Assembly (NCBI GenBank): GCA_029884455.1
Contig: JAOUHU010000008.1
Span: forward strand, 1 to 64,000
Source: Gammaproteobacteria bacterium
GTDB taxonomy: Bacteria > Pseudomonadota > Gammaproteobacteria > Steroidobacterales > Woeseiaceae
DNA length: 64,000 nt
Direction: 5' to 3'
Below the pieces are notes generated by a model. That model made no database searches. It was not told the origin of the DNA and saw only the letters and a program-made list of their open reading frames with translations. The position numbers and the translations under genes were made by a program. Shown piece after piece: positions 18,205 through 39,041 of this stretch (positions are counted from its first letter, which is position 1; every line of letters begins with the position of its first letter).

Positions 18205-19722
18205 ATGACCATGAATACGGGTACGCATCAAAACAAGAGCATCGTTATTCTTGGCGGCGGAACGGCCGGCTGGATCACCGCCAACGCGCTGATACATCGC
18301 TGGGCCGACCGGGGCGTTGCAGTTACCTTGATTGAATCACCTGACATTGGAACAGTCGGTGTGGGAGAAGGATCGACGCCGCGGCTGAAGCGGTTTTTCG
18401 ATGCTATCGGTGTCGCCGAGCCCGAGTGGATGCCAAAGTGCAACGCCACCTACAAAGTAGGAATATCGTTTGCGAACTGGTCGACAAAAGCGGGGTTCGA
18501 GCGCTATTTCCATCCGTTCCCGTCGCAGGCGGATCGGCACACTGCAACCGCCTATTACTTCAACACCTATGCGCGTCGGCTCGGCATCGACCTGCATGCG
18601 CATCCGGACCGTTTTTTCCTGGCAGCAAGGCTGGCCGAAAACCGGCAGGGCCCCAAGCCTGATGAAAATTTCCCGATCGTGGTCGAGTATGGCTACCACT
18701 TTGACGCCAATCTGCTGGGCGATTTTCTGCGCAGCCGGGCTATCGCCCGGGGCGTAGCGCATGTCCAGGCAAAAGTGGTAGAGGTCATGCAGTCCGCCGA
18801 CGGCGATATCCGCGAACTGCTGACCGATTCCGGCCAGTCGATTGCCGGCGATTTTTTCGTCGACTGCTCCGGATTTCGCAGTCAGCTGCTGCAACAAACA
18901 CTGCGGATACCGTTCCGGTCGTTCGCGGCCAACCTTTTCAATGACTCAGCGGTAGTCCTGCCGACCGAGCAGTCGGCGCAGATCGGCTCGCAGACCATAT
19001 CGACAGCAATGAAATACGGCTGGGCCTGGGAAATTCCCCTGACACATCGAATCGGCAACGGCTACGTGTACAGCTCCGGCTATTGCTCTGCAGACGAGGC
19101 AGAAACCGAGTTACGTGCCCGCCTGGGTCTGCTCGAAAGCGATACCCCGGCACGACACCTGAAAATGAAAGTCGGCCGGGTCGAAAGCCATTGGCATCGG
19201 AACTGCCTGGGCGTCGGACTGTCGCAGGGATTCATCGAACCATTGGAGGCAACGGCGCTGAACCTGGTCTGCAACACGGTTGACGATTTTATTACGACAG
19301 TCGAAGCGCACGGTCTCGAGGGTGATGGCCGCGACGGCCTCAACGACAGGGTCAACCAGGGATTCGAGAATGTGCGTGATTACATCGTCGCGCACTACAT
19401 TGTGAATTCGCGCAGCGATACCGACTATTGGCGGCGAAACGGCAGCAACGGTGAGGTCTCGCCGGCGTTGCGCCAGATCCTGGAAATATGGAAAACCGGC
19501 AAAAGCCTGAGCCTGGAAATCGAACGGCAGAAAATTCCAACGTCCTACACCGCCATGTCCTGGTATTGCCTGCTGGGCGGCTACGGCATTTACCCGGACA
19601 TTCGCCCGGCACCGGCCGATAATGCCGCTGGCCGTAAAGTGAATATGGCCGAAATCGATGCGTACATTGGCCGCTGCGCAATGAATTTCCGCTTGCAAAA
19701 CGAGCAACTGCAATTCTCCTGA
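18205..19722 (+). CDS. Tryptophan-halogenase-like flavin enzyme
   Basis: A 505-residue FADH2-dependent halogenase-family protein. Residues 14-23 hold the FAD-binding GGGTAGW. GVGEGSTP follows, then Lys84 in NATYKVGISFANW, equivalent to the catalytic lysine of PrnA. WAWEIP (W273, W275) is the W-x-W-x-I-P halogenase signature, and FIEPLEATAL lies near the C-terminus. All key elements are present, so halogenation of an indole or phenol is chemically possible. No flavin reductase, NRPS or PKS is nearby. The gene stands beside lacI and a glucan-use locus, as do many halogenase-like genes linked to TonB receptors (for example BrvH of Brevundimonas). Substrate unknown. Confidence 0.8.
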   Translation: MTMNTGTHQNKSIVILGGGTAGWITANALIHRWADRGVAVTLIESPDIGTVGVGEGSTPRLKRFFDAIGVAEPEWMPKCNATYKVGISFANWSTKAGFERYFHPFPSQADRHTATAYYFNTYARRLGIDLHAHPDRFFLAARLAENRQGPKPDENFPIVVEYGYHFDANLLGDFLRSRAIARGVAHVQAKVVEVMQSADGDIRELLTDSGQSIAGDFFVDCSGFRSQLLQQTLRIPFRSFAANLFNDSAVVLPTEQSAQIGSQTISTAMKYGWAWEIPLTHRIGNGYVYSSGYCSADEAETELRARLGLLESDTPARHLKMKVGRVESHWHRNCLGVGLSQGFIEPLEATALNLVCNTVDDFITTVEAHGLEGDGRDGLNDRVNQGFENVRDYIVAHYIVNSRSDTDYWRRNGSNGEVSPALRQILEIWKTGKSLSLEIERQKIPTSYTAMSWYCLLGGYGIYPDIRPAPADNAAGRKVNMAEIDAYIGRCAMNFRLQNEQLQFS

Positions 19723-19742: not shown

Positions 19743-20789
19743 ATGAAGGCTGAAAATCCGACCTCGCGCGATATTGCCGATCTGGCCGGTGTGTCGCAGG
19801 CGACCGTCTCGCGGGCGCTGCGAAACAGTCCGCTGGTGCGCAAGGAAACGCGCGATCGCGTGCAGCAGATTGCCCGCGAGTTGCACTATTTTGTCAACCG
19901 CAATGCAGCTGGCCTGCGCACCCACCAGAGCAAGACGTTGGCGCTGCTGCTGTTTGACGAAACGGATGGCACCGACAAATCGATGAACCTGTTTTTCTGG
20001 TCGATGCTCGACAACATCACGCGTGCGGCGGCACGACGCGGCTATGACGTATTGGTGTCCCTGCAACAGCTGACCAACGACTGGCATATAGAATACCAGG
20101 CGAGCAATCGGGCCGATGGCCTGATCCTGCTTGGCTATGGCGACTTCGCCGAGTACCGGGAAAAGCTGGATGCGCTGGCGGCCGCACACACGCGCTTCAT
20201 GATCTGGGGGCCGATCGTCAACGACCAGCCTGGCCACTCTTTTGGCTGTGACAATGAGCATGGTGGCTACCAGGCGACTCGGCACCTGCTCGATCTCGGG
20301 CGCAGCAGAATTGCCTATATCGGCCGCCGCGCACTGCGCAGTCCGGAGCACGCTGCGCGGTACCTGGGCTACGTCAGGGCATTGCATTCGGCCAGCATGG
20401 CCCCCAATGAAAAGCTGCGTTTTCCGGCCGACAATTCCGAAAAACTGGGCTATGAGGCAGTGCAGAAATTACTGGCCGTCGGTGAGCCGTTTGACGCGAT
20501 CTTTGCGGTCACGGATCTGATCGCGATTGGCGCGATGCGGGCGCTGGCCGACCATGGCATTTCGGTACCAAAAGACGTCAGCGTCGTGGGTTTTGACGAC
20601 ATGCCTTTGGCGGCACATGTGTCACCATCGTTGACCACGGTGCAACAAAACGCGCGCATGGCGGCGGAAGGCCTCGTCGACGGCATTGTTGGACTGATTA
20701 AGGGTCAGCCGGTTGAGTCCAGGCTGATGGCACCGAAATTGATTATTCGCGAGTCTTGCGGCGCTGCAGCCGCTGCAGTTCGGCGCTAA
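19743..20789 (+). CDS. LacI-family transcriptional regulator
   Basis: A 348-residue DNA-binding regulator. The N-terminal helix-turn-helix ([20 protein letters not shown]) is followed by a hinge and a periplasmic-binding-like sugar domain ([53 protein letters not shown]). It starts 20 bases after the halogenase and its 3' end overlaps the convergent amylase gene by 47 bases. Local TACGTA-centred palindromes at 33763-33813 and 23983-23996 are plausible operators, so I propose a maltodextrin- or starch-responsive repressor (MalR/MalI type). The effector is inferred from neighbours. Confidence 0.85.
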
Positions 20790-22422
20790 GCGCCGCATCG
20801 GTCACGGCGCCTTCGAATAACAGTACCCGCGCGCCGTGCGCGGCCACATCGAGTTCCAGGCGAGGTGCCGTGGCATTCACGCTGAAGGAATCGCCGCTCG
20901 CCGCATCGCGCCACTCGCCGTGACTTAACCACCTGGATACTGTTTTTGTTGCGCCACTGTCACTCTTGTTCAAGAGCACCAGTGCGGTCTGGTTTTCACC
21001 GTCTTTCTGATACACACGATAGAAAACCGCCGTGTCGTCGTCGATCTCGAGGTTTGCCTGCAGGCCGCGCTGCAGTGCGACAGAGGTTTTGCGGATTCTG
21101 GCGATGTCACTGAGCGCGGCACGAATCGGACCTGACCTGGCCAGTTCGACATTGTCCTGGCCAAAGTAATCGCGATTGCCGCTGTGCTGGTCAGTGCCGG
21201 CGCGAAATGCGATTTCCGACCCATAGTAGACAACCGGAATGCCGCGACTGGTAAATAACCAGTTGTTCGCGTCTATGAAACCGTTCGTATCGGCATGCAT
21301 GCGTGGCATATCGTGATTGTCATAGAAGGTCACGAGTTCATACGGATTCTGATAAATGCCACTCTCAAGCTCGAGGTAGTCGAGTAATGTGGCGTATGAC
21401 CCGCCCGTTGTACTGAAAACCTGCGACATCGCCCTTTGTCCCGGGAAGTCCAACACGCTGATACCGCCATTCTCCGGGTAGGTGAATTCTGCCAGCAGCT
21501 TGGGGTCAAACGTCCACGCCTCGCCGAACATGAACAGCCCGGGGTACTGCTTTCGAATCCGGTCGGCAAAAGCCTTCCAGAACGCGTGCGGCATGTGCTT
21601 GATGGTATCGATACGAACTGCCGCTGCGCCCTGACCGATCCAGTGCGCATGCGCCGCGACAAAATAGTCGAGCACATCGGGATTGTCGTAGTTCATGTCG
21701 GACAACTCGGCGAGATCACGCTCACGGCGGTAAAAAGCGTGCAGCGGATTGCTATCATCCAGCTCTGCCGGATACAGGTTCTGGTGGTCCGCCACAAGCT
21801 GCCCGTCGGCATCGTAGAGCTCGCCGTATTTCGGCTGATCCACGGGCATCGAAAACGCGGGTGAACCATGATTTGCGACGATATCGAGTACGGTCTTGAG
21901 ATTATGTTCGTCGCGTAGCTTGCGCGTGAAGTCCGCATAAGCGAGGCCGACCGATTCAAGATGCTCATCGACGGCAAAGAAGTTGACGCCCCAATAGCCG
22001 TGATAACCGGTCTTGCCCTGGTCATTGGACCCGCCGGCACCAGGCGGTGCTCCACCCGTAAAAGCCTCGTCCGGATTGTCGACAATTGGCGTCAGCCAGA
22101 TGGCGGTGAATCCCATCTCGGCAATGTAGTCGGCATTTTGCAGCACACCCTGGAAATCGCCGCCCAGGTAGCCAATATTACCGGGCGGCAGGCCTGCAAT
22201 CTGCACCGGCCGATCAAAACTGCCGAGCACCTCGCCACCCTGCTCTTCGTGATTGTTACTCGGGTCGCCGTCGACAAAGCGATCGGTTACGACGAAATAC
22301 ACAGCTTCAGCGGCGAATGGTTCGAGCGTGCCGTAATACTCGGCATCGACCGCAGGCGTCGAACACGACGTCAGCGCGAGAGTGCCAGCCAGCAAAACCA
22401 GGTAATGAAAACCGGCGCTCAT
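20743..22422 (-). CDS. Secreted GH13 alpha-amylase lipoprotein
   Basis: A 559-residue glycoside hydrolase. The start at ATG 22420-22422 overlaps the MFS stop (ATGA) and gives a lipoprotein signal with lipobox LTSC (Cys20), so the enzyme is membrane-anchored in the periplasm or on the outer membrane. GH13 residues are clear: DIVANHGSP, AAVRIDTIKHM (nucleophile Asp), FMFGEAWT (acid/base Glu) and TFYDNHDMPRM (transition-state Asp). The long first loop with GGDFQGV and GYHGYWG is typical of neopullulanase/CGTase-like amylases. A C-terminal beta domain follows. It would cut starch or maltodextrins for uptake and is coupled to the sugar transporter. Confidence 0.85.
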   Translation of the reverse strand: MSAGFHYLVLLAGTLALTSCSTPAVDAEYYGTLEPFAAEAVYFVVTDRFVDGDPSNNHEEQGGEVLGSFDRPVQIAGLPPGNIGYLGGDFQGVLQNADYIAEMGFTAIWLTPIVDNPDEAFTGGAPPGAGGSNDQGKTGYHGYWGVNFFAVDEHLESVGLAYADFTRKLRDEHNLKTVLDIVANHGSPAFSMPVDQPKYGELYDADGQLVADHQNLYPAELDDSNPLHAFYRRERDLAELSDMNYDNPDVLDYFVAAHAHWIGQGAAAVRIDTIKHMPHAFWKAFADRIRKQYPGLFMFGEAWTFDPKLLAEFTYPENGGISVLDFPGQRAMSQVFSTTGGSYATLLDYLELESGIYQNPYELVTFYDNHDMPRMHADTNGFIDANNWLFTSRGIPVVYYGSEIAFRAGTDQHSGNRDYFGQDNVELARSGPIRAALSDIARIRKTSVALQRGLQANLEIDDDTAVFYRVYQKDGENQTALVLLNKSDSGATKTVSRWLSHGEWRDAASGDSFSVNATAPRLELDVAAHGARVLLFEGAVTDAALSAELQRLQRRKTRE

Positions 22423-23927
22423 GATGAACGCGGCTCCGCCTGCTTGTCGACAAATAGAATGGCAAAGCCGGCGATCATCATCAGCAGGCCGCCAATAACA
22501 AGGCCGTATATGCTCTGCAGATCGAAAAACTTGCGAAGCACAAGACCCAGCACGCTCGCGGCGACGAGCTGCGGTATCACGATAAAGAAATTGAATATGC
22601 CCATGTAGATGCCCATCTTGTGCGCTGGCAGGTTGCTGGACAGCAGCGCATACGGCAGCGACAAAATCGAGGCCCAGGCGATACCCACACCGATCATTGG
22701 AATCAGCAGCATGGTCGGGTCCTTGATGAACAGGAAGCTGACCAGGCCCGAGCCACCAATCAGCATATTGATCAGATGACAGAGGCGACAACCGAGTTTG
22801 TTGGCGACAAACGGAATTGCGATAGCGGCCAGCGCCGCGAAACCGTTATACGCGGCAAACAACACGCCAACCCAGTCCGCGCCGTCGTTGTAGACGACCG
22901 AAGTCGCATCGCTGGCCCCATAGTGGTGACTGGTCACTGCGGAAGTGCCGTAGATCCACATGGCAAACAGCGCAAACCATGAAAAAAACTGCACCACCGC
23001 GAGTTGCTGCATGACCTTGGGCATATGAAAAAGGTCATGCATGATGTGATACAGGCCGTTATCAGTTCTGCCCTTGCGCTGCAGCAGGCTGGTGGCAATC
23101 TGCAGCAAGCCAAACAGTATGAAACCACCGGCGAGCACAAACAGCTGCTTATCCAGTTCCGCGCTCATGATCCAGTACCAGAAGGCAACACCGATTGCAG
23201 CCCAGACGAGGCCGCCGTTCAGGTATCGCGACGCCGGACGCAAGCTGACATCCTCGACTATGTGGGCCGTCGGACGCGCCGCCTCGAATGCCGCCAACTG
23301 CTCGGGTGAGTACTCTTTGCTACGCACCACGGTCCACAGGACAGCCAGCAGGAAAATTGCGCCACCCCAATAGAACGACAGCTTGACGGAGTCGGGCACG
23401 ACGCCTGCGGCCGCCGTGTTGCTGACGTCAAACCAGTTACTCATCATGTACGGCAGGGCCGAGGCAACCACGGCGCCTATGCCAATAAAAAACGTCTGCA
23501 TGGCGAAACCGGCAGTGCGCTGGTTCTCCGGCAACATGTCACCGACAAATGCGCGAAACGGCTCCATCGAAATATTGATGCTCGCATCCATGATCCACAG
23601 CATGCCAGCCGCGATCCAGAGCGCCGGCGAGTTCGGCATCACGAACAGCGCCAGCGAGGCGAGCACGGCGCCAACAAGGAAATACGGGCGGCGGCGCCCG
23701 AGACGATTCCAGGTCCGGTCCGACATGTAGCCGACGATTGGCTGCACTATCAAGCCGGTCAGTGGCGCCGCCACCCAGAGAATCGGGATGTCGTCAATCG
23801 ATGCGCCGAGTGTCTGAAAGATCCGGCTGACATTAGCATTTTGCAGTGCGAAGCCGAACTGAATGCCAAGAAATCCGAAACACATGTTCCAGATCTGCCA
23901 GAAACTGAGCTGTGGTTTGGTTTGCAT
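22419..23927 (-). CDS. MFS sugar transporter (maltose/sucrose type)
   Basis: A 502-residue major-facilitator permease with about 12 helices. The start at ATG 23925-23927 is preceded by GGGGGGTAAC, so I prefer it to a longer frame. The loop GYMSDRTWNRLGRRRPY is the motif found in the glycoside-transporting MFS group (SLC45/sucrose and MalT-like transporters). WIMDASINISMEPFRAFVGD is also typical. It probably imports maltose or short maltodextrins by cation symport across the inner membrane. It is the first gene of a two-gene unit with the amylase, and its promoter region contains a putative LacI operator at 23983-23996. Confidence 0.8.
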   Translation of the reverse strand: MQTKPQLSFWQIWNMCFGFLGIQFGFALQNANVSRIFQTLGASIDDIPILWVAAPLTGLIVQPIVGYMSDRTWNRLGRRRPYFLVGAVLASLALFVMPNSPALWIAAGMLWIMDASINISMEPFRAFVGDMLPENQRTAGFAMQTFFIGIGAVVASALPYMMSNWFDVSNTAAAGVVPDSVKLSFYWGGAIFLLAVLWTVVRSKEYSPEQLAAFEAARPTAHIVEDVSLRPASRYLNGGLVWAAIGVAFWYWIMSAELDKQLFVLAGGFILFGLLQIATSLLQRKGRTDNGLYHIMHDLFHMPKVMQQLAVVQFFSWFALFAMWIYGTSAVTSHHYGASDATSVVYNDGADWVGVLFAAYNGFAALAAIAIPFVANKLGCRLCHLINMLIGGSGLVSFLFIKDPTMLLIPMIGVGIAWASILSLPYALLSSNLPAHKMGIYMGIFNFFIVIPQLVAASVLGLVLRKFFDLQSIYGLVIGGLLMMIAGFAILFVDKQAEPRSS

Positions 23928-23982
23928 TGTTACCCCCCGCCTTTGCCGCATTGTAGCAACTACAGGCCGGCGCGGTTCCGGC

Positions 23983-23996
23983 TGCAAACGTATTCA
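23983..23996. promoter_or_regulatory. Putative LacI/MalR operator
   Basis: TGCAAACGTATTCA differs at a single base from TGCATACGTATTCA, the left half of the receptor/malQ palindrome. It lies 56 bases upstream of the MFS start and 55 bases upstream of the fusion gene, midway in a divergent promoter region. The central ACGT and the outer TGC/TCA are kept. Confidence 0.5.
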
Positions 23997-24050: not shown

Positions 24051-27000
24051 ATGACCGCACGCCAATACTTTAGCAACTTGACGATCAGCACCTTGCTGGC
24101 ACTTCTCGCGATCGATGTCGCACAAGCCGACTTCGGTGATTACCGGCGGCACGCCATGGACCAGCAAACACTGGCTATCGACACCAGTCTTGGCCAGTTG
24201 CGTATCACGCCGGTCGATAACGCCGCATTCGAAGTTCACTACCTTGAAAACGGCGTTAAGCAACTGCCCTCTTTCGCCCTCGCCGAATCCCCACCCCGGA
24301 TCGAGTCCGCCGTCGCCGAGTCGGAATCGTTCATTTCCTTCGCCATCGACGGACTGATAGCTGTTATCGACAAGTCCCCGGTTCGAATCAGCTATGCGAG
24401 CGACGGCTCGGACCTGGTCGCCGAAGCTGGTGGTTATTTCGCGGATAGCACGGCGCGTGGTTTTCGCTTCCGCCTGGACGACGGCGAGAAGATTCTCGGT
24501 GGCGGTGAACGCGTTCTGGGCATGAATCGGCGCGGCAAGCGCATGCCTTTGTACAACAAGGCCTCCTATGGCTATGAATTGCATGCCGAGCAAATGTACT
24601 ACGGCCTTCCTGCCGTGATGTCGTCCGACAGGTACATGATCGTGTTCGACAACTCCGCCAGTGGCTGGCTCGATATCGGGCAAACCGAGCCCGACATTCT
24701 CAGCTTCGAGGCTTCCGGCGGCCGAACCGCTTACCTGATCATTGCCGGCGAGAACTACCCGGCGCTGATCGAAAACTACACCGCCGTCACCGGGCGGCAG
24801 CCTATGCCGCCTCGATGGGCTTTCGGTAATTTCGCGTCCCGCTTCGGTTACCACTCGGAACGGGAAGTGCGTGACACGGTGCGGCGCTACCAAAAGCAGG
24901 ACATACCGCTGGACGCGGTGATCATCGACATTTACTGGTTCGGCCCCGACATCAAGGGCCATATGGGAAACCTGGATTGGGACCGCAATGCATTCCCGAC
25001 TGCCGAGGACATGATTGCCGACTTTTTGCAGCAGGGGATAAAAACAATCGTCGTCACGGAGCCGTTCATCCTGAGTACGTCGAAGCGTTGGCAGGATGCG
25101 GTAGAGAACAAGGCACTTGCCGTCGGCAGCGACGGCGAACCGCGCCGGTTTGATTTCTATTTCGGCAATACTGGCCTGGTCGACGTGTTTAACGCATCCA
25201 CCCGGAACTGGTTCTGGGAGCCGTACCGGATGCTGTTCGATCAGGGCATCGCTGCGAGCTGGGGTGACCTGGGTGAACCGGAAGTGCACCCGGGCGACGC
25301 ACTGCACTGGCTCAGTGAGGCGGGCATGCAGGCGAATGGCGATGAAATCCACAACGCCTTCGGCCATGTCTGGACGAAAATGCTGTACGAACGACAAATT
25401 GCCGCCTGGCCGGACATGCGGCCGCTGATCATGATGCGCTCCGGCTTCGCCGGCAGCCAACGTTACGGCATCGTTCCATGGACCGGTGACGTCAAACGTT
25501 CCTGGGGCGGTCTTAAGCCGCAAATCGAACTGAGTCTGCAAATGGGGCTGTTTGGCCTCGCCTACACGCACTCCGATCTCGGCGGTTTTGCTGACGGCGA
25601 AAAATTCGACCGCGAACTGTATATCCGCTGGTTGCAATACGGCGTGTTCCAGCCGGTGTACCGGCCGCACGCACAGGAGCACATCGCGCCGGAACCGGTT
25701 TTCCATGACCGAAAAACCCGCAAAATTGTACGCGAGTTCATCCAGCTGCGTTACCGGCTGCTGCCATACAACTACACTTTAGCCTATGAAAACAGCCAAA
25801 CCGGCATGCCGCTGATGCGCCCGCTGTTCTTCGAAAATGAAACAGATCTCGACCTGATCGATGCAAAACACGCTTACCTCTGGGGCGATGCATTCCTGGT
25901 AGCGCCGGTCATGGATGCCGGCGTTTCTGCCGTCAGTGTGCCGCTGCCGGCCGGCACCTGGTTCGACTTCTGGGATGACACGCGCTACGAGGGATCGCAG
26001 ACGGTTTCGATCCCGGTGACGCTGGAGACCATTCCGGTACTGGTGCGTGCCGGCTCGTTCGTGCCGATGGCCAAAGATATGCAAACGACCCAAGACTACG
26101 ACAGCGCGCAATTGACGCTGCATTATTACGCCGACAAAAGCGTGCCGCAGTCGAGCGGCCAAATGTACGCCGACGATGGCCACTCGCGGCAAAGCCTCGA
26201 GCAAGGCGCGTACGAGCTGCTGAACTTCAGTGCCGCGCAGCAGGACGCGGCGCTGCGCATCGAGCTCAGCCGAACCAGGGGTCTGTATGCGGGCCGGCCA
26301 GCGTCGCGCCAAGTCGAACTCGTGATTCACAACTGGACCGACGCCGTGACCGTGGCCCGCTTCAATGGCAATAGTGTGCGCCACGTCGTCGACCGAAAAA
26401 CCAGCACGCTTCGCCTGCAATTTGACTGGCACGGCGACGCAGCCCGGCTCGACATCAATACGTGGCCTGCAGCCGAAAAGGCGGTGGTTTACCAGGTTTT
26501 CACGCGCTTGTTCGGAAACCAGAATGCGAACAACGTGCCCTGGGGCACCATCGAACAAAACGGTGTCGGCAAATTCAGCGACTTCACGGATGCCGCGTTG
26601 CAGAGTATCCGCAAGCTGGGCGTGACGCACATCTGGTATACCGGCATACCGCATCACGCGGTCATCCGCGACTACACGGCCTACGGCATCAGCAACGACG
26701 ATCCGGATGTGGTCAAGGGCCGTGCCGGATCACCGTACGCGGTAAAGGACTACTACAACGTCAATCCCGATCTCGCGACCGATCCCGCACAACGGCTCGA
26801 AGAATTCGACGCGTTGATCGAGCGTACACACCGGAATGGCATGCAGGCGATCATCGACATCGTGCCAAACCACGTTGCCCGCAACTACCACTCGACCTCG
26901 GCTCCCGCTGGCGTCGAAGACTTCGGCGCCGGTGATGACACTTCCGTTGCGTGGGCCCGTGACAACAATTTCTATTACGTGGTCGGCGAAGATTTTGTGG

Positions 27001-29105
27001 TACCGGAACCCCCGCCCGGCTACGCACCCCTCGGTGGCGAACCGCACCCGCTGGCCGACGGCCAGTTTTTTGAATCGCCGGCAAAGTGGACCGGCAACGG
27101 CTCGCGTGCCGCCCAGCCGCAAAGCGATGACTGGTACGAAACAGTTAAGATCAATTACGGGGTACGCCCGGATGGCAGCTTTGCCTTCGAGCGTTTGCCC
27201 GAGGAAGCGCGCCACTGGTCGACTCAGGAACACGCAGCGTTCTGGGCCAATAAGGATGTGCCGGACAGCTGGCGAAAGTTTCGCGACATCGTGCTTTACT
27301 GGCTCGCCCGGGGCGTCGACGGATTCCGCTATGACATCGCCGAACTGGTGCCGGTCGAGGTATGGAGCTATCTGAACTCCGCAATCAAGATGCAAAACCC
27401 CGATGCATTCTTGATCGCCGAAGTCTACAACCCGTCACTGTACCGCGACTTTATCCGCCTCGGGCGCATGGACTACCTGTACGACAAGGTCGGCCTGTAC
27501 GACACGCTCAGAGCAGTCATGCAAGGCAACAGCAGCACCGATAGCATCGCCGCAACACATGGCACACTGCTCGACATCGAACAGCACATGCTGCATTTTC
27601 TCGAAAATCATGATGAACAACGCATCGCAAGCGCGGCCTTCGCGGGCGATGCCCGCAAAGGCAAACCGGCCATGGTGGTGTCGGCCTTGCTCGGCAGCGC
27701 GCCGACCATGCTCTACTTCGCGCAGGAGCTTGGCGAACCGGGTGACGGTGATGCGGGTTTTGGCGACCCGACGCGCACCACGATATTCGACTATTGGGGA
27801 GTTCCCGCGCAGCAACGCTGGATAAATGGCGGTCGATTCGACGGCGGCGCATCGACGGCGGCCGAAGTCAAGTTGCGCGACTTTTATGCGCGGCTGCTGA
27901 ACCTGAGCGCGACGAATCCGGCGTTTTCCGGCAAGTATGCCGAGATCCATTCCGCCAACCGACAAGGCAACGCGGCTTATGACGAACAACTTTTTTCCTT
28001 TGTGCGCTGGTCGGACCAGGAACGCCTGATCATTGCGAGTAACTTCAGCGCTGACGAATCGCAGTCGCTGACACTGCGCTTGCCACCCGAGATCGTCAGT
28101 GCATGGCAGATCGGAGCCGGCCGCTATCGCCTCGAAGAGTTGCTGTATGGCGAGAATACGAGCGAACTCGTGGTCGACGCCGGCAGCGGGTCGCTGCGCC
28201 TGGATCTTGAGCCACTCGAATCCGTTGCCTACCGGGTTGCCGAGGCCACGTTCAAGTCGACGCTCGACGTAAACGACTACCTCGAGGATATCGACAACGC
28301 GAATATCGTCGGCAAACTGATCACCTGGCGCGATGTCGAGTCAGGCTTTCTTGGCGAACCCCGCCATGTGCAGGTATGGCTGCCGCCGGGCTATGAAGAC
28401 AATCCGGAGCGCCGCTACCCGGTCATCTACATGTCCGATGGCGAGAACCTGTTCGACCCGCGTATCGCAAGCTGGGGTATCGATTGGGGTATCGATGAGG
28501 CCATCGCGACCGGCAGCGCCGCCAATCGTTTTGAGTCCGCCATCGTAGTCAGCAGCTGGAGCACGGCACGTCGCGGACTCGAGTACTCGCCATGGCACGA
28601 TGCAAAGCAGTATGCGCAGTTTCTGATCGAGGAATTGATGCCGCGTGTTAACCGCGAGTTCCGTACGCGACTCGGGCCGGAAAATACCTCGGCCATGGGC
28701 TCGTCGATGGGTGGCTTGCTGTCCTATTACCTCGTCACCAGGCATCCGGACAGCTTCGGCGCCTGCGGCTGCGTGTCAACGCACTTTGCTTTGGCGGAGG
28801 CCGATCTCGCCGCGTATACGGGTATCGACGCGGGCGACGCTGATGACACGCCTTACATCCTGCGCGACATCGAGAATGGCGCCATGGTTCCGGATGGGGT
28901 GCGCTTGTATTTCGACTACGGCACCGAGACGCTCGATTCCAGTTATGAGTCAGACCACAAGGCGGTACGCGAGTGGTTGCTAGGGCAAGGCCTGGTAGAG
29001 GGCCGGAATTTCCGTATGCGAAAGTATGCCGGTGCCGAGCACTCGGAAGCTGCTTGGCGCGCCCGCGTTGGCGATCAACTGCAATGGTTGCTGCAGGGCG
29101 ACTAG
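24051..29105 (+). CDS. GH31-GH13-esterase triple-domain fusion protein
   Basis: A 1684-residue exported protein with three catalytic modules. A signal peptide ends near residue 26 (DVAQA). GH31 alpha-glucosidase (about 30-790): SWGDLGEPE with nucleophile Asp406 and RSGFAGSQRYG followed by WTGDV with acid/base Asp480. GH13 alpha-amylase-like (about 805-1390): IIDIVPNH, DGFRYD with Asp1095, AEVYNP with Glu1124 and FLENHD with Asp1188. Carbohydrate-esterase-like alpha/beta hydrolase (about 1395-1684): VWLPPGYED, YMSDGENLFDP, GSSMGG with Ser1552 and AGAEHSE with His1664. All catalytic residues seem intact, and the frame is open throughout. AAGGATCC precedes the ATG. It probably degrades acylated or branched alpha-glucans in the periplasm or outside the cell. 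Confidence 0.85.
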   Translation: MTARQYFSNLTISTLLALLAIDVAQADFGDYRRHAMDQQTLAIDTSLGQLRITPVDNAAFEVHYLENGVKQLPSFALAESPPRIESAVAESESFISFAIDGLIAVIDKSPVRISYASDGSDLVAEAGGYFADSTARGFRFRLDDGEKILGGGERVLGMNRRGKRMPLYNKASYGYELHAEQMYYGLPAVMSSDRYMIVFDNSASGWLDIGQTEPDILSFEASGGRTAYLIIAGENYPALIENYTAVTGRQPMPPRWAFGNFASRFGYHSEREVRDTVRRYQKQDIPLDAVIIDIYWFGPDIKGHMGNLDWDRNAFPTAEDMIADFLQQGIKTIVVTEPFILSTSKRWQDAVENKALAVGSDGEPRRFDFYFGNTGLVDVFNASTRNWFWEPYRMLFDQGIAASWGDLGEPEVHPGDALHWLSEAGMQANGDEIHNAFGHVWTKMLYERQIAAWPDMRPLIMMRSGFAGSQRYGIVPWTGDVKRSWGGLKPQIELSLQMGLFGLAYTHSDLGGFADGEKFDRELYIRWLQYGVFQPVYRPHAQEHIAPEPVFHDRKTRKIVREFIQLRYRLLPYNYTLAYENSQTGMPLMRPLFFENETDLDLIDAKHAYLWGDAFLVAPVMDAGVSAVSVPLPAGTWFDFWDDTRYEGSQTVSIPVTLETIPVLVRAGSFVPMAKDMQTTQDYDSAQLTLHYYADKSVPQSSGQMYADDGHSRQSLEQGAYELLNFSAAQQDAALRIELSRTRGLYAGRPASRQVELVIHNWTDAVTVARFNGNSVRHVVDRKTSTLRLQFDWHGDAARLDINTWPAAEKAVVYQVFTRLFGNQNANNVPWGTIEQNGVGKFSDFTDAALQSIRKLGVTHIWYTGIPHHAVIRDYTAYGISNDDPDVVKGRAGSPYAVKDYYNVNPDLATDPAQRLEEFDALIERTHRNGMQAIIDIVPNHVARNYHSTSAPAGVEDFGAGDDTSVAWARDNNFYYVVGEDFVVPEPPPGYAPLGGEPHPLADGQFFESPAKWTGNGSRAAQPQSDDWYETVKINYGVRPDGSFAFERLPEEARHWSTQEHAAFWANKDVPDSWRKFRDIVLYWLARGVDGFRYDIAELVPVEVWSYLNSAIKMQNPDAFLIAEVYNPSLYRDFIRLGRMDYLYDKVGLYDTLRAVMQGNSSTDSIAATHGTLLDIEQHMLHFLENHDEQRIASAAFAGDARKGKPAMVVSALLGSAPTMLYFAQELGEPGDGDAGFGDPTRTTIFDYWGVPAQQRWINGGRFDGGASTAAEVKLRDFYARLLNLSATNPAFSGKYAEIHSANRQGNAAYDEQLFSFVRWSDQERLIIASNFSADESQSLTLRLPPEIVSAWQIGAGRYRLEELLYGENTSELVVDAGSGSLRLDLEPLESVAYRVAEATFKSTLDVNDYLEDIDNANIVGKLITWRDVESGFLGEPRHVQVWLPPGYEDNPERRYPVIYMSDGENLFDPRIASWGIDWGIDEAIATGSAANRFESAIVVSSWSTARRGLEYSPWHDAKQYAQFLIEELMPRVNREFRTRLGPENTSAMGSSMGGLLSYYLVTRHPDSFGACGCVSTHFALAEADLAAYTGIDAGDADDTPYILRDIENGAMVPDGVRLYFDYGTETLDSSYESDHKAVREWLLGQGLVEGRNFRMRKYAGAEHSEAAWRARVGDQLQWLLQGD

Positions 29106-29107
29106 CC

Positions 29108-30628
29108 TTACGCGTTGGCCGCGGCTCGCAATTCATCGAGTCGTTCGCGGTGAGGCCGGAAGTTAAGCGTGCAGCCTCGCAGGTACTTCTCGATGTCGTG
29201 TAAGTTGAATTTGTGGGCGAGCTCGTTGCCAGGGCGCAACTGGTCTTGTGTCGGGTAAATGCCTTTGCCGGCCAGCAAACAGTTCCAGGACATGCTCGGG
29301 AAGTAGGCGTCCAGGGCCTGGCGTTCGAGTTCGTCCGTGATGTTCTTGCCCTGTAGCCACGCGGTCAGGATCTGCCGCAAGGACGGCGAGATTTTTTCGT
29401 TGCATCCTGCATCACGCCAGTAAGGCGTGTCGGTGCGTGTGTTGATGCGATAGTGGCAGACGATGTAGTCGCGCACGGCGTCGAAGCGCTTGCTGATCCG
29501 CGCGTTGAACTCCTCGCGGTACCGGTCGCTCATATCGCCCTTCATCGCCGCCTCGAAAAAGCGGAATACCGTTTCCTGTACCATGTCGAGCGCTGTGGCT
29601 TCGAGCGGTTCGATAAAACCTTGTGACAAGCCGACAGCCAGGCAGTTCTTGACCCAGTGCTCGCGCACGCGGCCAACCTTGAATTTCAGCCGCCGTGCTG
29701 CGATGTCCGAGTCCCCGAGCCCCAGGTGTTGCCGGAATTCCATTTCCGCAGCGTCATCATCCACGTACTTCGAGCTGTACACGTAGCCGTTGCCAAAACG
29801 CGAGGTCAGCGGAATTTTCCAGGCCCAGCCGTACTTGAGCGCCGTCGAAACCGTTTGCGGTTCCGGGTTCTCATCCGCTTCCGTCGGAAAGACGACCGCC
29901 GAATCGTTATACAGCACCTCTGCGCAGTTCTCGAATGGCACCCCGAGCGCCTGCTGCAACAACTGGCTGCGAAAGCCGGTCGAGTCAACATAGAAATCCG
30001 CCTTGATAGTCTGCTCGCTGTCGGTCTGCAGATAATCGATGTAACCCTTGTCGTCGAGCACGACTTCGGTGACTGTTGCCTGGCGGTACTTGACGCCCTT
30101 TTTTGCGGCCCAGTCCTTCAGGAATTCACCCAGCAGCCCGGAGTTGAAGTGGTAGCCGTAATTCATTTTGAACGGGAAATTGGGCGGCGCCACCGGCGCC
30201 TGCCGTTGCGTCGCCAGGTACCACTCGAGGAAAAACTGGCTCGGGTGGCCGTCGAGGTCCACGCCCTGGCGGCGCAGGAAGCTGTTGTGGTAGAACGCGG
30301 GCACCGTAAACTCGTCGGGCTGGCTCTGGAACGGATGGAAATACTCGTCAAATCCGGCTCGCGTCGACCAATGCCGGAACGTGATGCCGGTCTTGTAGGT
30401 TGCATCGCAGCGGCTCATCCAGTCGCTTTCCTCGACACCGACGTAGTCGAGGAATTTCTTCAGCGGTGGCGTCGAGCCTTCGCCGACGCCGATGATGCCG
30501 ATATCGGGCGATTCGACCAGGGTGATGTCGTAATCCTTGCCTTGCCAACCTTTCGCCAGCATGTTGGCAGCAATCCAGCCAGCGGTGCCACCGCCCAGTA
30601 TCACGAAGCTCTTGGTGCCCTTGCGCAT
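29108..30628 (-). CDS. Second tryptophan-halogenase-like flavin enzyme
   Basis: A 506-residue paralogue of the halogenase at 18205. GGGTAGW (residues 12-18), GVGEGSTP, Lys79 in CDATYKTGITF (the same number as the PrnA catalytic lysine), WAWKIP and FIEPLEATAL are all present. It follows the TonB-dependent receptor on the same strand, behind two hairpins, and converges with the fusion gene with a two-base gap. Placement directly after a carbohydrate TonB receptor is the known context of many uncharacterised halogenase-like genes. No flavin reductase is visible, and the natural substrate is unknown. Confidence 0.8.
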   Translation of the reverse strand: MRKGTKSFVILGGGTAGWIAANMLAKGWQGKDYDITLVESPDIGIIGVGEGSTPPLKKFLDYVGVEESDWMSRCDATYKTGITFRHWSTRAGFDEYFHPFQSQPDEFTVPAFYHNSFLRRQGVDLDGHPSQFFLEWYLATQRQAPVAPPNFPFKMNYGYHFNSGLLGEFLKDWAAKKGVKYRQATVTEVVLDDKGYIDYLQTDSEQTIKADFYVDSTGFRSQLLQQALGVPFENCAEVLYNDSAVVFPTEADENPEPQTVSTALKYGWAWKIPLTSRFGNGYVYSSKYVDDDAAEMEFRQHLGLGDSDIAARRLKFKVGRVREHWVKNCLAVGLSQGFIEPLEATALDMVQETVFRFFEAAMKGDMSDRYREEFNARISKRFDAVRDYIVCHYRINTRTDTPYWRDAGCNEKISPSLRQILTAWLQGKNITDELERQALDAYFPSMSWNCLLAGKGIYPTQDQLRPGNELAHKFNLHDIEKYLRGCTLNFRPHRERLDELRAAANA

Positions 30629-30746: not shown

Positions 30747-33692
30747 TTAATACCGGTAGTTGAGACCGAAATAGTATTGCCGCCCGAACGACCTGTATTC
30801 GCCGAGCAATCCGGACACACCGTATTCAATGATCGCCGCCTCGTCGGTGAGGTTGTTGCCCGACACCACCACGCTGAGACCGTTTTCCCACGCATAGGAT
30901 ACCTGCGCGTCCACGGTAGTGTAATCCTGCGACCACGACGGCTGCTGTCCCTGCGGCGTCGGAATTCTCTGGATAAACTCGTCGCGGTAACGCACGTTGA
31001 CATGCGCGCTGAAGGCCTCGTAATCGTAGAAGAGCGTGGCGCTCCAGACGTTTTCGGACAAGCCTGGCAACGGCTGGATATTGCTCGAACCCAGTATCTG
31101 CCCGCCGGTGATCTCGGTCTCGCTCTGGGTATAGGAGTAGCTTGCCGTCGCACCGAGCCCGGACCAGATACCCGACAGATTGTCGAAGGTCTTGGTGCCG
31201 GCCAACTCGATACCACGGATGTAGCCGCCGCGGTCATTGTTGATGTAGGTCTGGTAGATATTCAGGAATGACCCGGCGGGCACGGTGACACCCACCGAGG
31301 CGGGATCAACACCGAATAACTGATTCGGTCCCTCGATGAGCGACTCGATGTCCTTCCAGAACACGGCCGCGCTCACGGCACCGCTGCTGTCTTCGAAGTA
31401 GTGCTCATAGGACAGGTCGGCCTGGCTGGCGCGGAACGGATCGAGGTAGGGTGAACCGTCATTCCAGACATTGTATTCCTGCAAACCAAAGTTCGGACTG
31501 GTCGGATCGGTAATCACGCTACCCGACCAGTTGCCACGGGCTTGCACCATCTGCCCGACCGGCGGGCGGCTCATGACTTTGGCTGCCGCAAAGCGCAGGA
31601 TGTCGTTGTCGCTGAGCTCGAACGCCAGGTTCAGGGACGGCAGCGTGTCGCTGTAGTCCGGACCGTACTTGTTGAACAGCAGGTAATCGTTGGTAACCCC
31701 GAGGTCGTCCGTGATCGGTGTGCCAAGGCCACCGCCAACGTTCTGCAGGCCGGCCGTCTTGACATCGCTCTCGATGTAACGCACGCCGAGATTGCCGCGG
31801 ACCGGCACGCTGCCCCAGGTGAAGTCGAGGTTCGCCATCAGGTAGAACGCCTCGGTATCCTCGGTCAGCGTGTTGTCGTTGATCAGGGTCCAGTCATCGG
31901 ACCATTTGTCGAGGCCCGCGTCATTGCCGGCACCGAATATCGAGCGTCCCAGCGCATCGATGTTGGTCACGGCGACATGATCGGGCAGGCCCGGAAGCGA
32001 CTGGATCGTAACGAAATCAGCGATGGATTGCGGCTCACAGACCAGCGGGTTGGAGCCAGCGACGGTGTCATTGGCCTCACACCAGCTGTTGATGCCATCG
32101 TTGAAGATGCCCTCGCGCCCGCCGTACTGGAAGGTGCCGCGCTCGGTCGTAAACTCACGGTCCGAGATTCGTACGCCGACCTCGATCGAGGAGACCGGGC
32201 CCCATTCCACATCCTGCTTGAAGTCGACCTTGAACGCGCTGATTTCGTCCGAGTATGCATGCGGATAGCGCTCGTACCGGCCGAGGCGCATTACGGTCGG
32301 GTCATCGAAGGCAACATTTGTGAACGTGGCCGACGGGATGCCCTGGCCGTTCAGCGTGTACGTCATCGATTGCCCTGGCACCTCCTGGAAGGTACCGGCG
32401 CCGTTGAAGTCAAGCTGGTAGGCGTGCATCGTGGCGATGCGATCTTCGCGCGTCTTGTCGCCTTCGCTCTGGTAAATGTCGAAACTCAGCGTGCTGCTGT
32501 CCGTGGGGTACCACTCCAGGTTAAGACCGTAAGTGGTGCTGTCCGCCACCGTAGACTGATCCTCGGTGCGCGCCTCGAAATACGGATGGTCGCGCCCACC
32601 GCTGGCGATATTCTGATTGACGGCCGCAATCGTGGCGCTGGTGATGACGCCGTTCTCGATGACCGGGTTGCTGACAATCGTATTGGCCGCCGCACCTTCC
32701 CGGAAACCGCTCGCGGTGATGCCGGTGCGCTGGTCGTTGCGATCGAACTCCGACTGGAAATAGTCGAACCGCGCCTTGAAACTGTCGCTGGGCTCCCAGT
32801 TAAGTGCCGCCACGACACCCGTGCGCTCGTCGCTACCGGTGCCTGCCTGCCACTGGAAGGCACGAGGCATGTATTCATTGCCTGCGGTGCCGTCGCCGGA
32901 AAAGCCGATCGAATCCGTGTCGTCGGCGCCGGCACGGCCCATGATGAACGCATTCGGCTGGTCCAGGAAGGAGTAACCGAGCGCCACACCGAGGGTGTCG
33001 TCCACAAACTTACCCTGGTAGGAAGCAGTGACACGTGAGCCGCTCTCGTCGCCGCCGAATTCGTCAGCCGCATCGTTTTGCGACAGCCTGAGATTGGCAA
33101 CGAAGTTATGCTGTTGCGGCGCATCCAGCGGGTTTGCCGTCTTCAGCTCGACGATACCGGCGACGCCACCTTCCAGCTGCGAGGCTTTGGGCGACTTGTA
33201 CACGGCCGCCTGGTTGATCAGTTCAGCAGGATACTGGTCGAAAGACATCCAGCGCGTGTTCGCAGAATAGCCTGCCGTCGACGCCTGCTCGCGACCATTC
33301 AGCGTGGTCTGCACGAAGTCGCCATCCATGCCGCGAATATTGAGCTGCGACGATTGTCCGGAATCGCGCACGGTCGTCACGCCCGGTACACGGCCAAGCG
33401 CGTCGGCAATGGACTGGTCAGGGAGATTACCGAGCGCACCGGCGTCGACGACGTCAGAAATGGTGTCGGCCAGGCGCTTGCTTTCCACAGAGTTGAGGAC
33501 GCTGGTGCGAATGCCGATGGATACAATCTCCTCAATCGTTCCATCATCCTGCGCCGCGGCATTGGTCGGTATCATTACCGCGCCAGGCAAAGCCGCCGCA
33601 ATAGCCAATGACAATGCGGTGCGCCGAATATGCAGAGACATACCTGAGTCTGCTGAGATCGCTTTGCCATACATTTGATTCTTTGTAGCCAT
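30747..33692 (-). CDS. TonB-dependent receptor, probable maltodextrin transporter
   Basis: A 981-residue outer-membrane receptor. The signal peptide (about 17-48) ends in NAAAQDDG. A short TonB-box region with IEEIVSIGIRTS and then a plug domain follow: DQSIADALGRVPGVTTVRD, LNIRGMDGDFVQTTLNGRE and LEGGVAGIVELKT. The remaining residues form the 22-strand barrel, ending in YYFGLNYRY with an aromatic terminal residue as outer-membrane proteins require. It lacks the N-terminal STN signalling domain, so it is not expected to talk to an ECF sigma/anti-sigma pair. Next to glucan enzymes and a LacI-type operator, it resembles the MalA-type maltodextrin receptors described in Caulobacter. GGGGGAA lies upstream of the start. 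Confidence 0.85.
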   Translation of the reverse strand: MATKNQMYGKAISADSGMSLHIRRTALSLAIAAALPGAVMIPTNAAAQDDGTIEEIVSIGIRTSVLNSVESKRLADTISDVVDAGALGNLPDQSIADALGRVPGVTTVRDSGQSSQLNIRGMDGDFVQTTLNGREQASTAGYSANTRWMSFDQYPAELINQAAVYKSPKASQLEGGVAGIVELKTANPLDAPQQHNFVANLRLSQNDAADEFGGDESGSRVTASYQGKFVDDTLGVALGYSFLDQPNAFIMGRAGADDTDSIGFSGDGTAGNEYMPRAFQWQAGTGSDERTGVVAALNWEPSDSFKARFDYFQSEFDRNDQRTGITASGFREGAAANTIVSNPVIENGVITSATIAAVNQNIASGGRDHPYFEARTEDQSTVADSTTYGLNLEWYPTDSSTLSFDIYQSEGDKTREDRIATMHAYQLDFNGAGTFQEVPGQSMTYTLNGQGIPSATFTNVAFDDPTVMRLGRYERYPHAYSDEISAFKVDFKQDVEWGPVSSIEVGVRISDREFTTERGTFQYGGREGIFNDGINSWCEANDTVAGSNPLVCEPQSIADFVTIQSLPGLPDHVAVTNIDALGRSIFGAGNDAGLDKWSDDWTLINDNTLTEDTEAFYLMANLDFTWGSVPVRGNLGVRYIESDVKTAGLQNVGGGLGTPITDDLGVTNDYLLFNKYGPDYSDTLPSLNLAFELSDNDILRFAAAKVMSRPPVGQMVQARGNWSGSVITDPTSPNFGLQEYNVWNDGSPYLDPFRASQADLSYEHYFEDSSGAVSAAVFWKDIESLIEGPNQLFGVDPASVGVTVPAGSFLNIYQTYINNDRGGYIRGIELAGTKTFDNLSGIWSGLGATASYSYTQSETEITGGQILGSSNIQPLPGLSENVWSATLFYDYEAFSAHVNVRYRDEFIQRIPTPQGQQPSWSQDYTTVDAQVSYAWENGLSVVVSGNNLTDEAAIIEYGVSGLLGEYRSFGRQYYFGLNYRY

Positions 33693-33862: not shown

Positions 33863-35428
33863 GTGTCGATTGATATCCCGCCGATGACCAACAACAGCCG
33901 AGACCAGGTATTGCCAGCCAGCAGGCGGGCAGGCGTTGGCCTGCATCTGACCTCGCTGCCGGGGCCTTTTGGCATTGGCGAGATTGGCAGCAGTGCCCGC
34001 TGGTTCGTCGATACCATGACCAAAATGAACCTCAGTATTTGGCAATTTTTGCCAACTGGACCAACGGCTTATGGTGATTCGCCGTATCAGCCCCTGTCGA
34101 CGTTTGCGGGCAATGAGCTGCTGATTGATATCAGCGAGCTTATTGCCCTGGGCCTGCTTGGCGCGCAGGAGGTCGCGGCGCTGGCGGCATTGCCGAGGGA
34201 TTTCGTCGATTACGGGGCGCTGATTCCGGCCAAGAACCGGGTGCTGCGTGTCGCGGCCGGCCGCTTCGCTGCTACCGCCAGTGCCGAACTGCAATCTGCC
34301 TGCGAGGAATACATTGCGCAGCACGATCAGAGCTGGTTACACGATTACGCCCTGTTCCGCATTCTCAAGTCTCAGCACGGCGAACGGCCATGGCCGGAAT
34401 GGCAAGCGCAGTACGTGCATCGCGAGCCGGACGCCCTGCGCGCCCTGGAGAAATCCGAAGCGGCGCACATTGCCGCGATAAAGATTATCCAGTTCCTGTT
34501 CCACCACCAGTGGCAGAAATTGCGTTCCTACGCAAAGGCACGTGACGTACTACTGTTTGGCGACATGCCAATCTACATCGCACTTGACAGCGCGGATGCC
34601 TGGGCCAACCCGGAGATATTGCGTATCAATGCGGACGGCAGGCCAGACCATGTTGCTGGCGTACCGCCCGACTACTTCAGTGCGGACGGCCAGCTCTGGG
34701 GCAATCCCCTGTATGCCTGGGAGATGCATGCAAGGAACGGCTACCGATGGTGGATAGATCGCATGCGCGCATCGGTAGAACTCGCCGACCTGGTTCGTAT
34801 TGATCATTTCCGTGGCTTCGAGTCCTACTGGTCGGTGCCCGCCAGTGCTGCCACCGCACGCTTCGGCAGTTGGGAAATTGGGCCAGGCGATGCCATTTTC
34901 GATGCCATGAAAAAAAGCCTGGGCCAGTTGCCGATCGTAGCCGAAGACCTTGGCGTGATTACCCATGACGTGGAAGGTTTACGTGACCGCCACCGCATTC
35001 CGGGAATGGTGGTGCTGCAGTTCGACGTGGCCGATCCCGATTTCAAATTTGAAAATATTGCGGAGAACAGTGTTTGCTACACGGGAACTCACGACAACGA
35101 TACAACGATAGGCTGGTTCCATGGCAGCCCGGGAGACCTGCGATCGACCGCGGAAATCGCACGAACTCAGGCAGCGGCTACCGCCAGGACGGGCGGCAGC
35201 GCTGCGACCATCCACACCGACATGATCCGGCTGGCCTTTTCGAGTCACTCCCGATTGTCGATTGCGCCACTGCAGGATTTCCTCGGGCTTGGCTCGGAGG
35301 CCCGGATTAATACGCCTGGCAAGCCCGCCAATAACTGGCGCTGGCGCTTTAAAGACGAGCAGCTCACGGCAACGGTCATCGCGCAGGCTGCGGGACTGGT
35401 CAGGGATTCCGGGCGCGCGGCGGGTTAA
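33863..35428 (+). CDS. malQ: 4-alpha-glucanotransferase (amylomaltase)
   Basis: A 521-residue cytoplasmic GH77 enzyme that transfers maltosyl chains between glucans and releases glucose, linking imported maltodextrins to glycogen. Family motifs are complete: LPGPFGIGEIG, WQFLPTGPT, GVPPDYFSADGQLWGNPLY, RIDHFRGF with nucleophile Asp314, AEDLG with Glu361 and GTHDNDT. The GTG at 33863 is one possible start; ATG 33884 is the alternative, and neither has a strong ribosome site. It heads the glycogen operon, 50 bases after the palindromic operator. Confidence 0.9.
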   Translation: MSIDIPPMTNNSRDQVLPASRRAGVGLHLTSLPGPFGIGEIGSSARWFVDTMTKMNLSIWQFLPTGPTAYGDSPYQPLSTFAGNELLIDISELIALGLLGAQEVAALAALPRDFVDYGALIPAKNRVLRVAAGRFAATASAELQSACEEYIAQHDQSWLHDYALFRILKSQHGERPWPEWQAQYVHREPDALRALEKSEAAHIAAIKIIQFLFHHQWQKLRSYAKARDVLLFGDMPIYIALDSADAWANPEILRINADGRPDHVAGVPPDYFSADGQLWGNPLYAWEMHARNGYRWWIDRMRASVELADLVRIDHFRGFESYWSVPASAATARFGSWEIGPGDAIFDAMKKSLGQLPIVAEDLGVITHDVEGLRDRHRIPGMVVLQFDVADPDFKFENIAENSVCYTGTHDNDTTIGWFHGSPGDLRSTAEIARTQAAATARTGGSAATIHTDMIRLAFSSHSRLSIAPLQDFLGLGSEARINTPGKPANNWRWRFKDEQLTATVIAQAAGLVRDSGRAAG

Positions 35429-35526: not shown

Positions 35527-36816
35527 ATGGCTGACCTCAGACATTCAGAAGAAACTCGATTCATTAGCCGGCTGACGCGGCAGACGCTGGCCATGATCCT
35601 CGCAGGCGGACAAGGTTCGCGGCTTTACGAGCTAACCACCTGGCGGGCCAAGCCGGCGCTCTACTTCGGCGGCAAGTACCGCATCATCGATTTCCCGTTA
35701 TCCAACTGCATTAACTCAGGGGTGCGCCGCATCGGCGTACTTACGCAATACAAGGCGCATTCGCTGATCCGGCACCTTGTGCACGGCTGGTCGTGGTTCC
35801 AGGCGGGTGCAAGCAACCGCGAATTCGTTGAAATCCTCCCGGCGTCGCAGCGTATCGGTGGCGAGTGGTACCGTGGCACCGCCGATGCGATCTACCAGAA
35901 TCTCGACATTATTCGCACGCACAATCCCCGCTACGTGCTGATCCTGTCCGGCGACCATATCTACAAGATGGACTACGGTCCGTTTCTTGCGGCGCATGCG
36001 GAAACCGAAGCAGACATGACTATCTGTTGCATCGAGGTGCCGATTGAGGAGGCCGCCGGCCAGTTTGGTGTCATGACCGTCGATGAAACCGGCCGCATTA
36101 TCGGCTTCGACGAGAAACCTGAAAAACCGAATCCGATTCCCGGCAAACCCGGCTATTGTCTCGCCTCCATGGGCAACTACATTTTTAATACCAACTTTCT
36201 GTTCGAACAGCTGATCAAGAATGCGGACACACCGGGCACCCGGCACGACTTTGGTCGCGACGTTATCCCGGCAATCATTGACCGCTACCGTGTGTATGCG
36301 TTCGCCTTTCGTGATCCGAAGACCGACGAGCAGGCCTACTGGCGGGACGTAGGTACGCTGCAGGCGTTCTGGGAAGCCAACATGGAACTTGTCGAGATCA
36401 CGCCGCAATTGAACCTGTACGACAACGACTGGCCGATTTTCACCTACCAGGTCCAGGCGCCGCCGGCGAAATTTGTCTTCGATTCCGATGAGCGCCGTGG
36501 CCAGGCAATCCAGTCGATGGTGTCCGGCGGCTGTATTATTTCCGGGTCGACGATTCGAAAATCGCTGTTATTTTCGGGCACCGTCGTCAATTCCTACAGC
36601 CTGGTCAGCGAGTCCGTTGTGCTGCCGGATGTGAGGATTGGCCAGAATTGCCGCATCCACAAGGCCATTATCGACCGCGGTACGCACATTCCGGACGGTA
36701 CAGTTATTGGCGCGAATGCGGACCAGGACCGGCAACGCGGCTTCCGCGTAACCGAGACCGGCCTGACCCTGGTGACCCCCGACATGCTCGGCCAGCAACT
36801 GCATTACACACGCTAG
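35527..36816 (+). CDS. glgC: Glucose-1-phosphate adenylyltransferase
   Basis: A 429-residue enzyme making ADP-glucose from ATP and glucose-1-phosphate, the committed step of bacterial glycogen synthesis. The N-terminal nucleotidyltransferase fold carries [43 protein letters not shown] and [11 protein letters not shown]. The second half is a left-handed beta-helix ([28 protein letters not shown]) where allosteric activators usually bind. The start ATG 35527 lies 98 bases after malQ. The product needs a glycogen synthase (glgA), which is not in this window. Confidence 0.95.
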
Positions 36817-36835
36817 CTTTGGCGTAACACAGATC

Positions 36836-39013: not shown

Positions 39014-39041
39014 AACGGCAATCGCTCAAGGAGGATGATGC

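Follow-up and report, generated by a model that had tools for sequence, protein, structure and literature searches.

In the 64,000-nucleotide stretch of DNA analysed here (the window), a single open reading frame joins a GH31 enzyme, a GH13 enzyme and a PF00756 esterase in one polypeptide. The fusion is a real, uncommon combination, a new domain architecture of known families that is kept in one lineage. The frame begins with ATG, contains no N and runs uninterrupted, and the Pfam matches and the invariance of the named residues agree with the claim of an earlier note on this DNA that it encodes three complete active sites. The features of the protein are listed below, with invariance counted only over alignment rows that passed a coverage filter.

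24051..29105, + strand: triple-fusion open reading frame, 1684 codons (1684 amino acids)
24051..24128, + strand: predicted Sec signal peptide, residues 1-26 (VAQA/DFGDY), read by eye; aligned relatives have a similar N terminus, most with ADFG
24135..26381, + strand: GH31 module, residues 29-777 (Pfam PF13802, PF01055, PF21365 and PF17137), like the oligosaccharide 4-α-glucosyltransferase Agd31B
25266..25268, + strand: GH31 catalytic D406, invariant in 61/61 GH31 rows
25488..25490, + strand: GH31 catalytic D480, invariant in 61/61 GH31 rows
26382..26474, + strand: GH31/GH13 linker, residues 778-808, variable, with 15 fused relatives at 25-42% identity here versus 65-75% in both flanking modules
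26475..28238, + strand: GH13 module, residues 809-1396 (Pfam PF00128 and PF02806), with a matching fold in its AlphaFold model
27333..27335, + strand: GH13 D1095, invariant in 100/100 GH13 rows
27420..27422, + strand: GH13 E1124, invariant in 100/100 GH13 rows
27612..27614, + strand: GH13 D1188, invariant in 100/100 GH13 rows
28239..28346, + strand: GH13/esterase linker, residues 1397-1432, variable (23-64% identity in 13 relatives with the near esterase)
28347..29102, + strand: esterase module, residues 1433-1684, an α/β-hydrolase (PF00756) of CE1/Fes fold
28704..28706, + strand: esterase nucleophile S1552 in G-S-S-M-G, invariant in 37/37 rows, including one (L001) that duplicates the window
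28935..28937, + strand: D1629, the likely catalytic acid by inference, between the Ser and the His; shared by the nearer rows and absent from those of Bacteroidales and Photobacterium
29040..29042, + strand: esterase catalytic H1664, invariant in the same 37/37 rows

Pfam places four GH31 domains, a GH13 catalytic domain and the PF00756 esterase in this order along the frame, with scores above cut-off for GH31 (best 277 bits), Esterase (81), Alpha-amylase (65) and Alpha-amylase_C (23.4); two further matches, hDGE_amylase and Abhydrolase_1, are weak and under cut-off. Some relatives carry the modules as separate adjacent genes, as would be expected if an assembly join or frameshift had artificially united three neighboring genes. 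Against this, the identical fusion, with its junctions aligned, is present in 13 other genomes of the family and in 2 more with a diverged esterase, and the coding signal is even across the modules, which are alike in codon-position GC. We therefore regard the fusion as biological and reject an artefact, whose probability we put close to nil. The earlier note had named a join or frameshift at about residue 800 or 1395 and a loss of active-site residues in family alignments as the outcomes that would speak against it; in these same relatives the junctions are free of stops, and the named residues are invariant.

To define how widely the architecture is shared, 107 genomes of the family (Woeseiaceae-type) were searched. 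A match at E ≤ 1e-30 was obtained in 34, and 33 were counted after leaving out G078, which holds only a distant GH31 (32% identity). The triple fusion with the near esterase occurs in 14 of the 33, source genome included, and the other 13 copies are 65-73% (GH31), 67-75% (GH13) and 65-70% (esterase) identical to the window. Two genomes (G309 and G305) have a triple fusion whose esterase is 35-40% identical, and in one (G214) the contig end falls inside such a diverged esterase. Five have a GH31-GH13 protein without a fused esterase (G090, G260, G157, G302 and G280), the esterase being the next gene in G157; four pair a GH31 with a GH13-esterase fusion (G056, G178, G113 and G202, the GH31 of G178 being split over contigs); five have separate GH31 and GH13 frames with no adjacent esterase (G105, G121, G046, G084 and G303, the GH13 of the last being fused to another GH13); and two (G163 and G222) are too fragmented for a call. 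In 9 of the 33 genomes, an esterase is found neither fused nor next door.

Several individual loci add to this mosaic. In G151, a 2293-codon frame (L132:5142-12020, minus strand) extends the GH31, GH13 and esterase modules with a second, C-terminal α-amylase domain. In L119, L120, L041, L046 and L165, the position after GH13 is taken by the diverged esterase type (35-40% identity), as though one type had been swapped for the other. In G090, a 75-codon frame about 4 kb from the GH31-GH13 fusion (G090:C1:3195638-3195826, minus strand, near L122:4639-4827) is 57% identical to esterase residues 1619-1681 and is perhaps the remnant of a lost esterase gene. An apparent extra N-terminal domain of ~450 amino acids in L046 and L138 was rejected, as it comes from reading into sequence ahead of the signal peptide, in which Pfam finds no domain.

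A tree of GH31 plus GH13 (35 rows) groups 28 family rows (100/96) and leaves many inner forks open; one family member, G084, falls among the outsiders, and the window lies beside G200 weakly (91/61). Because the tree is poorly resolved, fusion events were not counted. The esterase of L118 shares 75% identity with its L004 counterpart and 65% with that of L007, the locus that pairs with L118 as its sister in the GH31 plus GH13 tree; from these sequences, the esterase seems to move independently of GH31 and GH13.

Among the matches listed in a sample of 296 genomes of the order, all rows that span modules come from the family itself. In 369 genomes of the class, a GH13-esterase query at E ≤ 1e-60 gave three matches, two of them the source genome and a congener with the fusion and one with GH13 alone. 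Matches came from 55 of 295 genomes in G657's order and from 41 of 295 in G677's class; with the best two candidates scored per genome, none had both modules in one frame apart from a candidate that was rejected. That candidate, open frame 1422 of G773, had appeared to fuse GH31 to GH13 but proved on translation to be two ORFs parted by a stop. In addition, we took the best 80 of 584 confirmed loci from a contig scan, of which 70 (L047-L116) lie outside the family. None of these 70 has a GH31-GH13 fusion, and in 32 of them a GH31 of this type directly adjoins this GH13. Rare fusions may occur elsewhere.

The nearest known enzyme to the GH31 module is Agd31B of Cellvibrio japonicus, a 4-α-glucosyltransferase, and for this reason we predict with good confidence that it is a transglucosylase. 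Agd31B (PDB 4b9y) aligns end to end over residues 29-777 at 960 bits, the next PDB enzyme reaching 310, and the family features of Agd31B-like GH31 enzymes are all present (N-terminal β-sandwich, barrel and C-terminal domains). Both catalytic Asp residues of Agd31B (PDB 4b9y and 5i23) have counterparts at matching positions, and after Agd31B we take D406 to be the nucleophile and D480 the acid/base. The solved Agd31B chains consist of GH31 alone (817-836 amino acids), whereas the fusion continues into GH13 and the esterase. The earlier note had GH31 and GH13 attacking one substrate class by different routes. The shared class is upheld, but the picture of two routes needs amending in that the GH31 module most resembles an enzyme described in the text of PMC9061262 as a transglucosylase, not a hydrolase acting in parallel to GH13.

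The GH13 module has the amylase fold, and R1093 and H1187 of the conserved regions are present in 100/100 rows along with D1095, E1124 and D1188, presumably the nucleophile, acid/base and third catalytic residue, respectively. It has no close relative of solved structure. The best PDB sequence match scores 58 bits, and the best NCBIfam match 80.1 against a cut-off of 875 bits; among the matches listed, the GH13 amylases 3dhu (L. plantarum α-amylase), 1wzm (TVAII neopullulanase) and 1ea9 (cyclomaltodextrinase) are 15-24% identical, and the fold comparison of a two-module model took in its GH13 part only. GH13 enzymes of this group have other fusion partners as well. In Cellvibrio, L058:5901-9776 encodes a GH97 fused to a GH13 of the same group, so that this GH13 is joined to an α-glucosidase-type enzyme in a second lineage; frames of similar length occur in Cellvibrio L068 and L069. 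On another contig, a GH13 of the group shares its chain with a second GH13 that resembles maltogenic amylase (L043:7854-11570, which is also L164:7601-11317).

The esterase module has an α/β-hydrolase fold of the PF00756/CE1-like kind, with a Ser in G-x-S-x-G and a His, and D1629 probably supplies the third residue of the triad, judging from its position and conservation. It does not qualify as a member of the Fes family (NF007758, 38.5 bits against a cut-off of 222) and also falls short of the bifunctional xylanase/feruloyl esterase model NF041944 (38.4 against 1200 bits). This fold is common to feruloyl, acetylxylan, siderophore and S-formylglutathione esterases, and the substrate is thus not readable from it.

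The fused protein and its unfused counterparts differ in their predicted location. In all eight unfused family copies that we read by eye (L125, L123, L124, L121, L117, L119, L120 and L043), the GH13 has a lipoprotein-type signal, that is, a Cys after a hydrophobic stretch, and in the GH31 an ordinary signal peptide precedes ADF. Also by eye, four GH13 copies outside the family have the lipoprotein-type N terminus, as does the free esterase of L118; that of L052 does not. In the fused protein, the GH31 signal alone is left and those of GH13 and the esterase are gone, so fusion would change both the coupling of the enzymes and their place.

The gene neighborhood points to α-glucan use. The flanking features are:

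18205..19722, + strand: tryptophan-halogenase-family flavoprotein 1 (PF04820)
19743..20789, + strand: LacI-family regulator
20743..22791, − strand: second GH13 enzyme (PF00128), its start probably downstream of the listed TTG
22419..23987, − strand: MFS sugar transporter, GPH-sucrose-like (PF07690; TIGR01301 at 98.5 bits, below cut-off)
29108..30628, − strand: tryptophan-halogenase-family flavoprotein 2 (PF04820)
30747..33692, − strand: TonB-dependent receptor
33863..35428, + strand: GH77 4-α-glucanotransferase
35527..43558, + strand: GlgC-, GlgB-, GlgP- and GlgX-like genes in a row, named from their Pfam domains

The start of the second GH13 is placed downstream because its frame overlaps the next gene; its best NCBIfam matches, maltodextrin glucosidase and cyclomaltodextrinase, are both far below cut-off. 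Similar neighbors recur in relatives. A TonB-dependent receptor, a sugar regulator, a sugar carrier and α-glucan enzymes thus stand together, as in a Gram-negative α-glucan utilization locus, and we hold an α-glucan role of the fusion protein to be very likely. In 14 of 29 loci examined, a TonB receptor is accompanied by a tryptophan-halogenase-family gene.

The esterase is likely linked to α-glucan use as well, judging from its sequence relatives and genomic context, which lend some support to the view of the earlier note that it belongs with the α-glucan enzymes. Overall, the interpretation in that note is partly supported, and the acylated substrate it suggested is hypothetical. Its nearest relatives outside triple fusions are 51-63% identical, and in the seven of these scanned a CBM20-like domain precedes the esterase (three over and four under the Pfam cut-off). 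A profile of eight such domains matched 50 PDB sequences at E ≤ 1 (best E 2e-4, four below 0.002), and 47 of the 50 are glucoamylase, β-amylase, maltotetraohydrolase, CGTase or maltogenic amylase, enzymes that we take to bear CBM20. One 877-codon frame in G302 (L163:4023-6653, minus strand) combines a lipoprotein-type N terminus, an α-amylase, a CBM20 and a C-terminal esterase, and it sits in an α-glucan locus ~9 kb from the GH31-GH13 fusion. The CBM20-like relatives and this amylase-CBM20-esterase protein support, without proving, action of the esterase on α-glucan. In two genomes of the order, CBM20-esterase genes follow pyruvate-dehydrogenase-complex genes (L127:6877-8223 and L128:6909-8108), outside α-glucan loci.

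Esterases of the wider group occur in 8 of the 70 GH13 loci outside the family drawn from the best 80 of 584 (three Alishewanella, three Bacteroidales-type and two Photobacterium, the last two ~7 kb from the GH13); in the other 62, of which, as of all 70, some are short (only 44/70 hold at least 17 kb), no esterase of this kind is found near the GH13. As a yardstick, the five PF00756 matches in the 3.33 Mb source genome would predict ~1.8 in 70 stretches of 17.5 kb, a rough figure that uses the genome's own rate with no matched control, treats related loci as separate and assumes a length that only those 44 approach. Of eight more distant esterases scanned from such loci, seven are without a CBM20 and one has a weak match. 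In G173, a wider-group esterase lies in an MFS/LacI/TonB locus.

We propose that the fusion is a trifunctional α-glucan processor, soluble and Sec-exported (periplasmic or secreted), an explanation that as a whole we consider somewhat better than an even bet. The TonB-dependent receptor would bring maltodextrins into the periplasm, where the GH13 module would cut them or transfer segments, and the Agd31B-like GH31 would shift single glucosyl units between 4-OH ends and so redistribute chain lengths. The esterase would take acyl groups off α-glucan chains, making them usable by the glycoside enzymes and the importer; this predicted deacylation is the part for which we see the chances as evenly balanced. 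The products would then enter the cell through the MFS carrier and pass to GH77, phosphorylase and GlgX. Fusion would replace separate enzymes, some of them lipoprotein-like (the GH13 and certain free esterases), with one soluble chain that keeps three enzymes close together and at equal dose.

The esterase might instead be a passenger, a general CE1-like enzyme that became joined to its neighbors in the locus and acts, uncoupled, on an unrelated ester such as a phenolic or acetyl group of other polysaccharides. Its closest folds are indeed Fes and the feruloyl/acetylxylan esterases, the GH31-GH13 proteins of 5 of the 33 family genomes lack a fused esterase (in 4 of these no intact one lies next door), a different clade takes the same place in other genomes, and most of the distant relatives scanned (7 of 8) are without CBM20. 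On the other hand, the Ser and His are conserved in every row, the near relatives have CBM20-like domains, one being fused to an amylase-CBM20, and the use of two esterase clades in one place suggests selection for an esterase there. On balance, we think a passenger unlikely, at perhaps one chance in a handful. A role in recycling acetyl-maltose appears less probable still. Here the enzyme would remodel glycogen- or starch-derived maltodextrins that carry no modification, and its esterase would strip acyl groups that the cell itself had put on maltose or maltodextrins. Maltose O-acetyltransferases exist in other bacteria, and the neighboring genes make and break glycogen, but predicted export places the enzyme outside the cytoplasm.

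We favor an exported α-glucan processor. A more specific version, which we advance tentatively and hold to be rather less likely than its negation, is that the esterase and its CBM20-bearing relatives form a group dedicated to acylated α-glucans, and that in the fusion deacylation is coupled to glucosyl transfer and chain cleavage within one soluble, exported polypeptide. Natural esterification is not a property usually ascribed to starch or glycogen, and to our knowledge there is no recognized carbohydrate-esterase family for acylated α-glucans. If the esterase were specific for such glucans, the substrate itself would be news, and the interest of the architecture rests on this point; the fusion mosaic of the family would then amount to a natural experiment in how a machine of this kind is put together. 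The retention of an esterase on α-glucan enzymes, together with starch-binding-type domains on the near free forms, may point to an overlooked decorated α-glucan, supplies modules for probing one, and hints at starch-like sugars with ester decorations as a possible natural food. The fused, half-fused and separate states among close relatives are also useful for studying the origin of multi-enzyme proteins and a possible trade of lipid anchors for tethering.

Our searches of open-licence PMC papers agree with the earlier note that no characterized protein is known with the GH31-GH13-esterase order: they returned nothing on such fusions or on α-glucan esterases, and no paper pairing GH31 with GH13 in one chain. 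The main text of PMC12175321 describes α-glucan PULs with GH13, GH31, GH97 and GH77 in six Woeseiaceae MAGs, which have GH13, GH31 and GH77 in common with the window locus; the words "fused" and "esterase" are absent from that main text. Similarly, marine Flavobacteriia have α-glucan PULs in which GH13 loci hold GH31, GH65 and GH97 (PMC11093988, whose main text contains neither "esterase" nor "fusion"). Multicatalytic CAZymes such as CE15-GH8 (PMC8417218) resemble the fusion in carrying an esterase and a glycosidase in one chain, but they draw on families other than GH31, GH13 and PF00756. The esterase module itself is 17-20% identical to the CE1 feruloyl/acetylxylan esterases BT_4077 (7xrt) and Bacint_04212 (5vol) and to the enterobactin esterase Fes and, unlike these enzymes, has nearest sequence relatives that carry a CBM20-like domain, in one case joined to an amylase.
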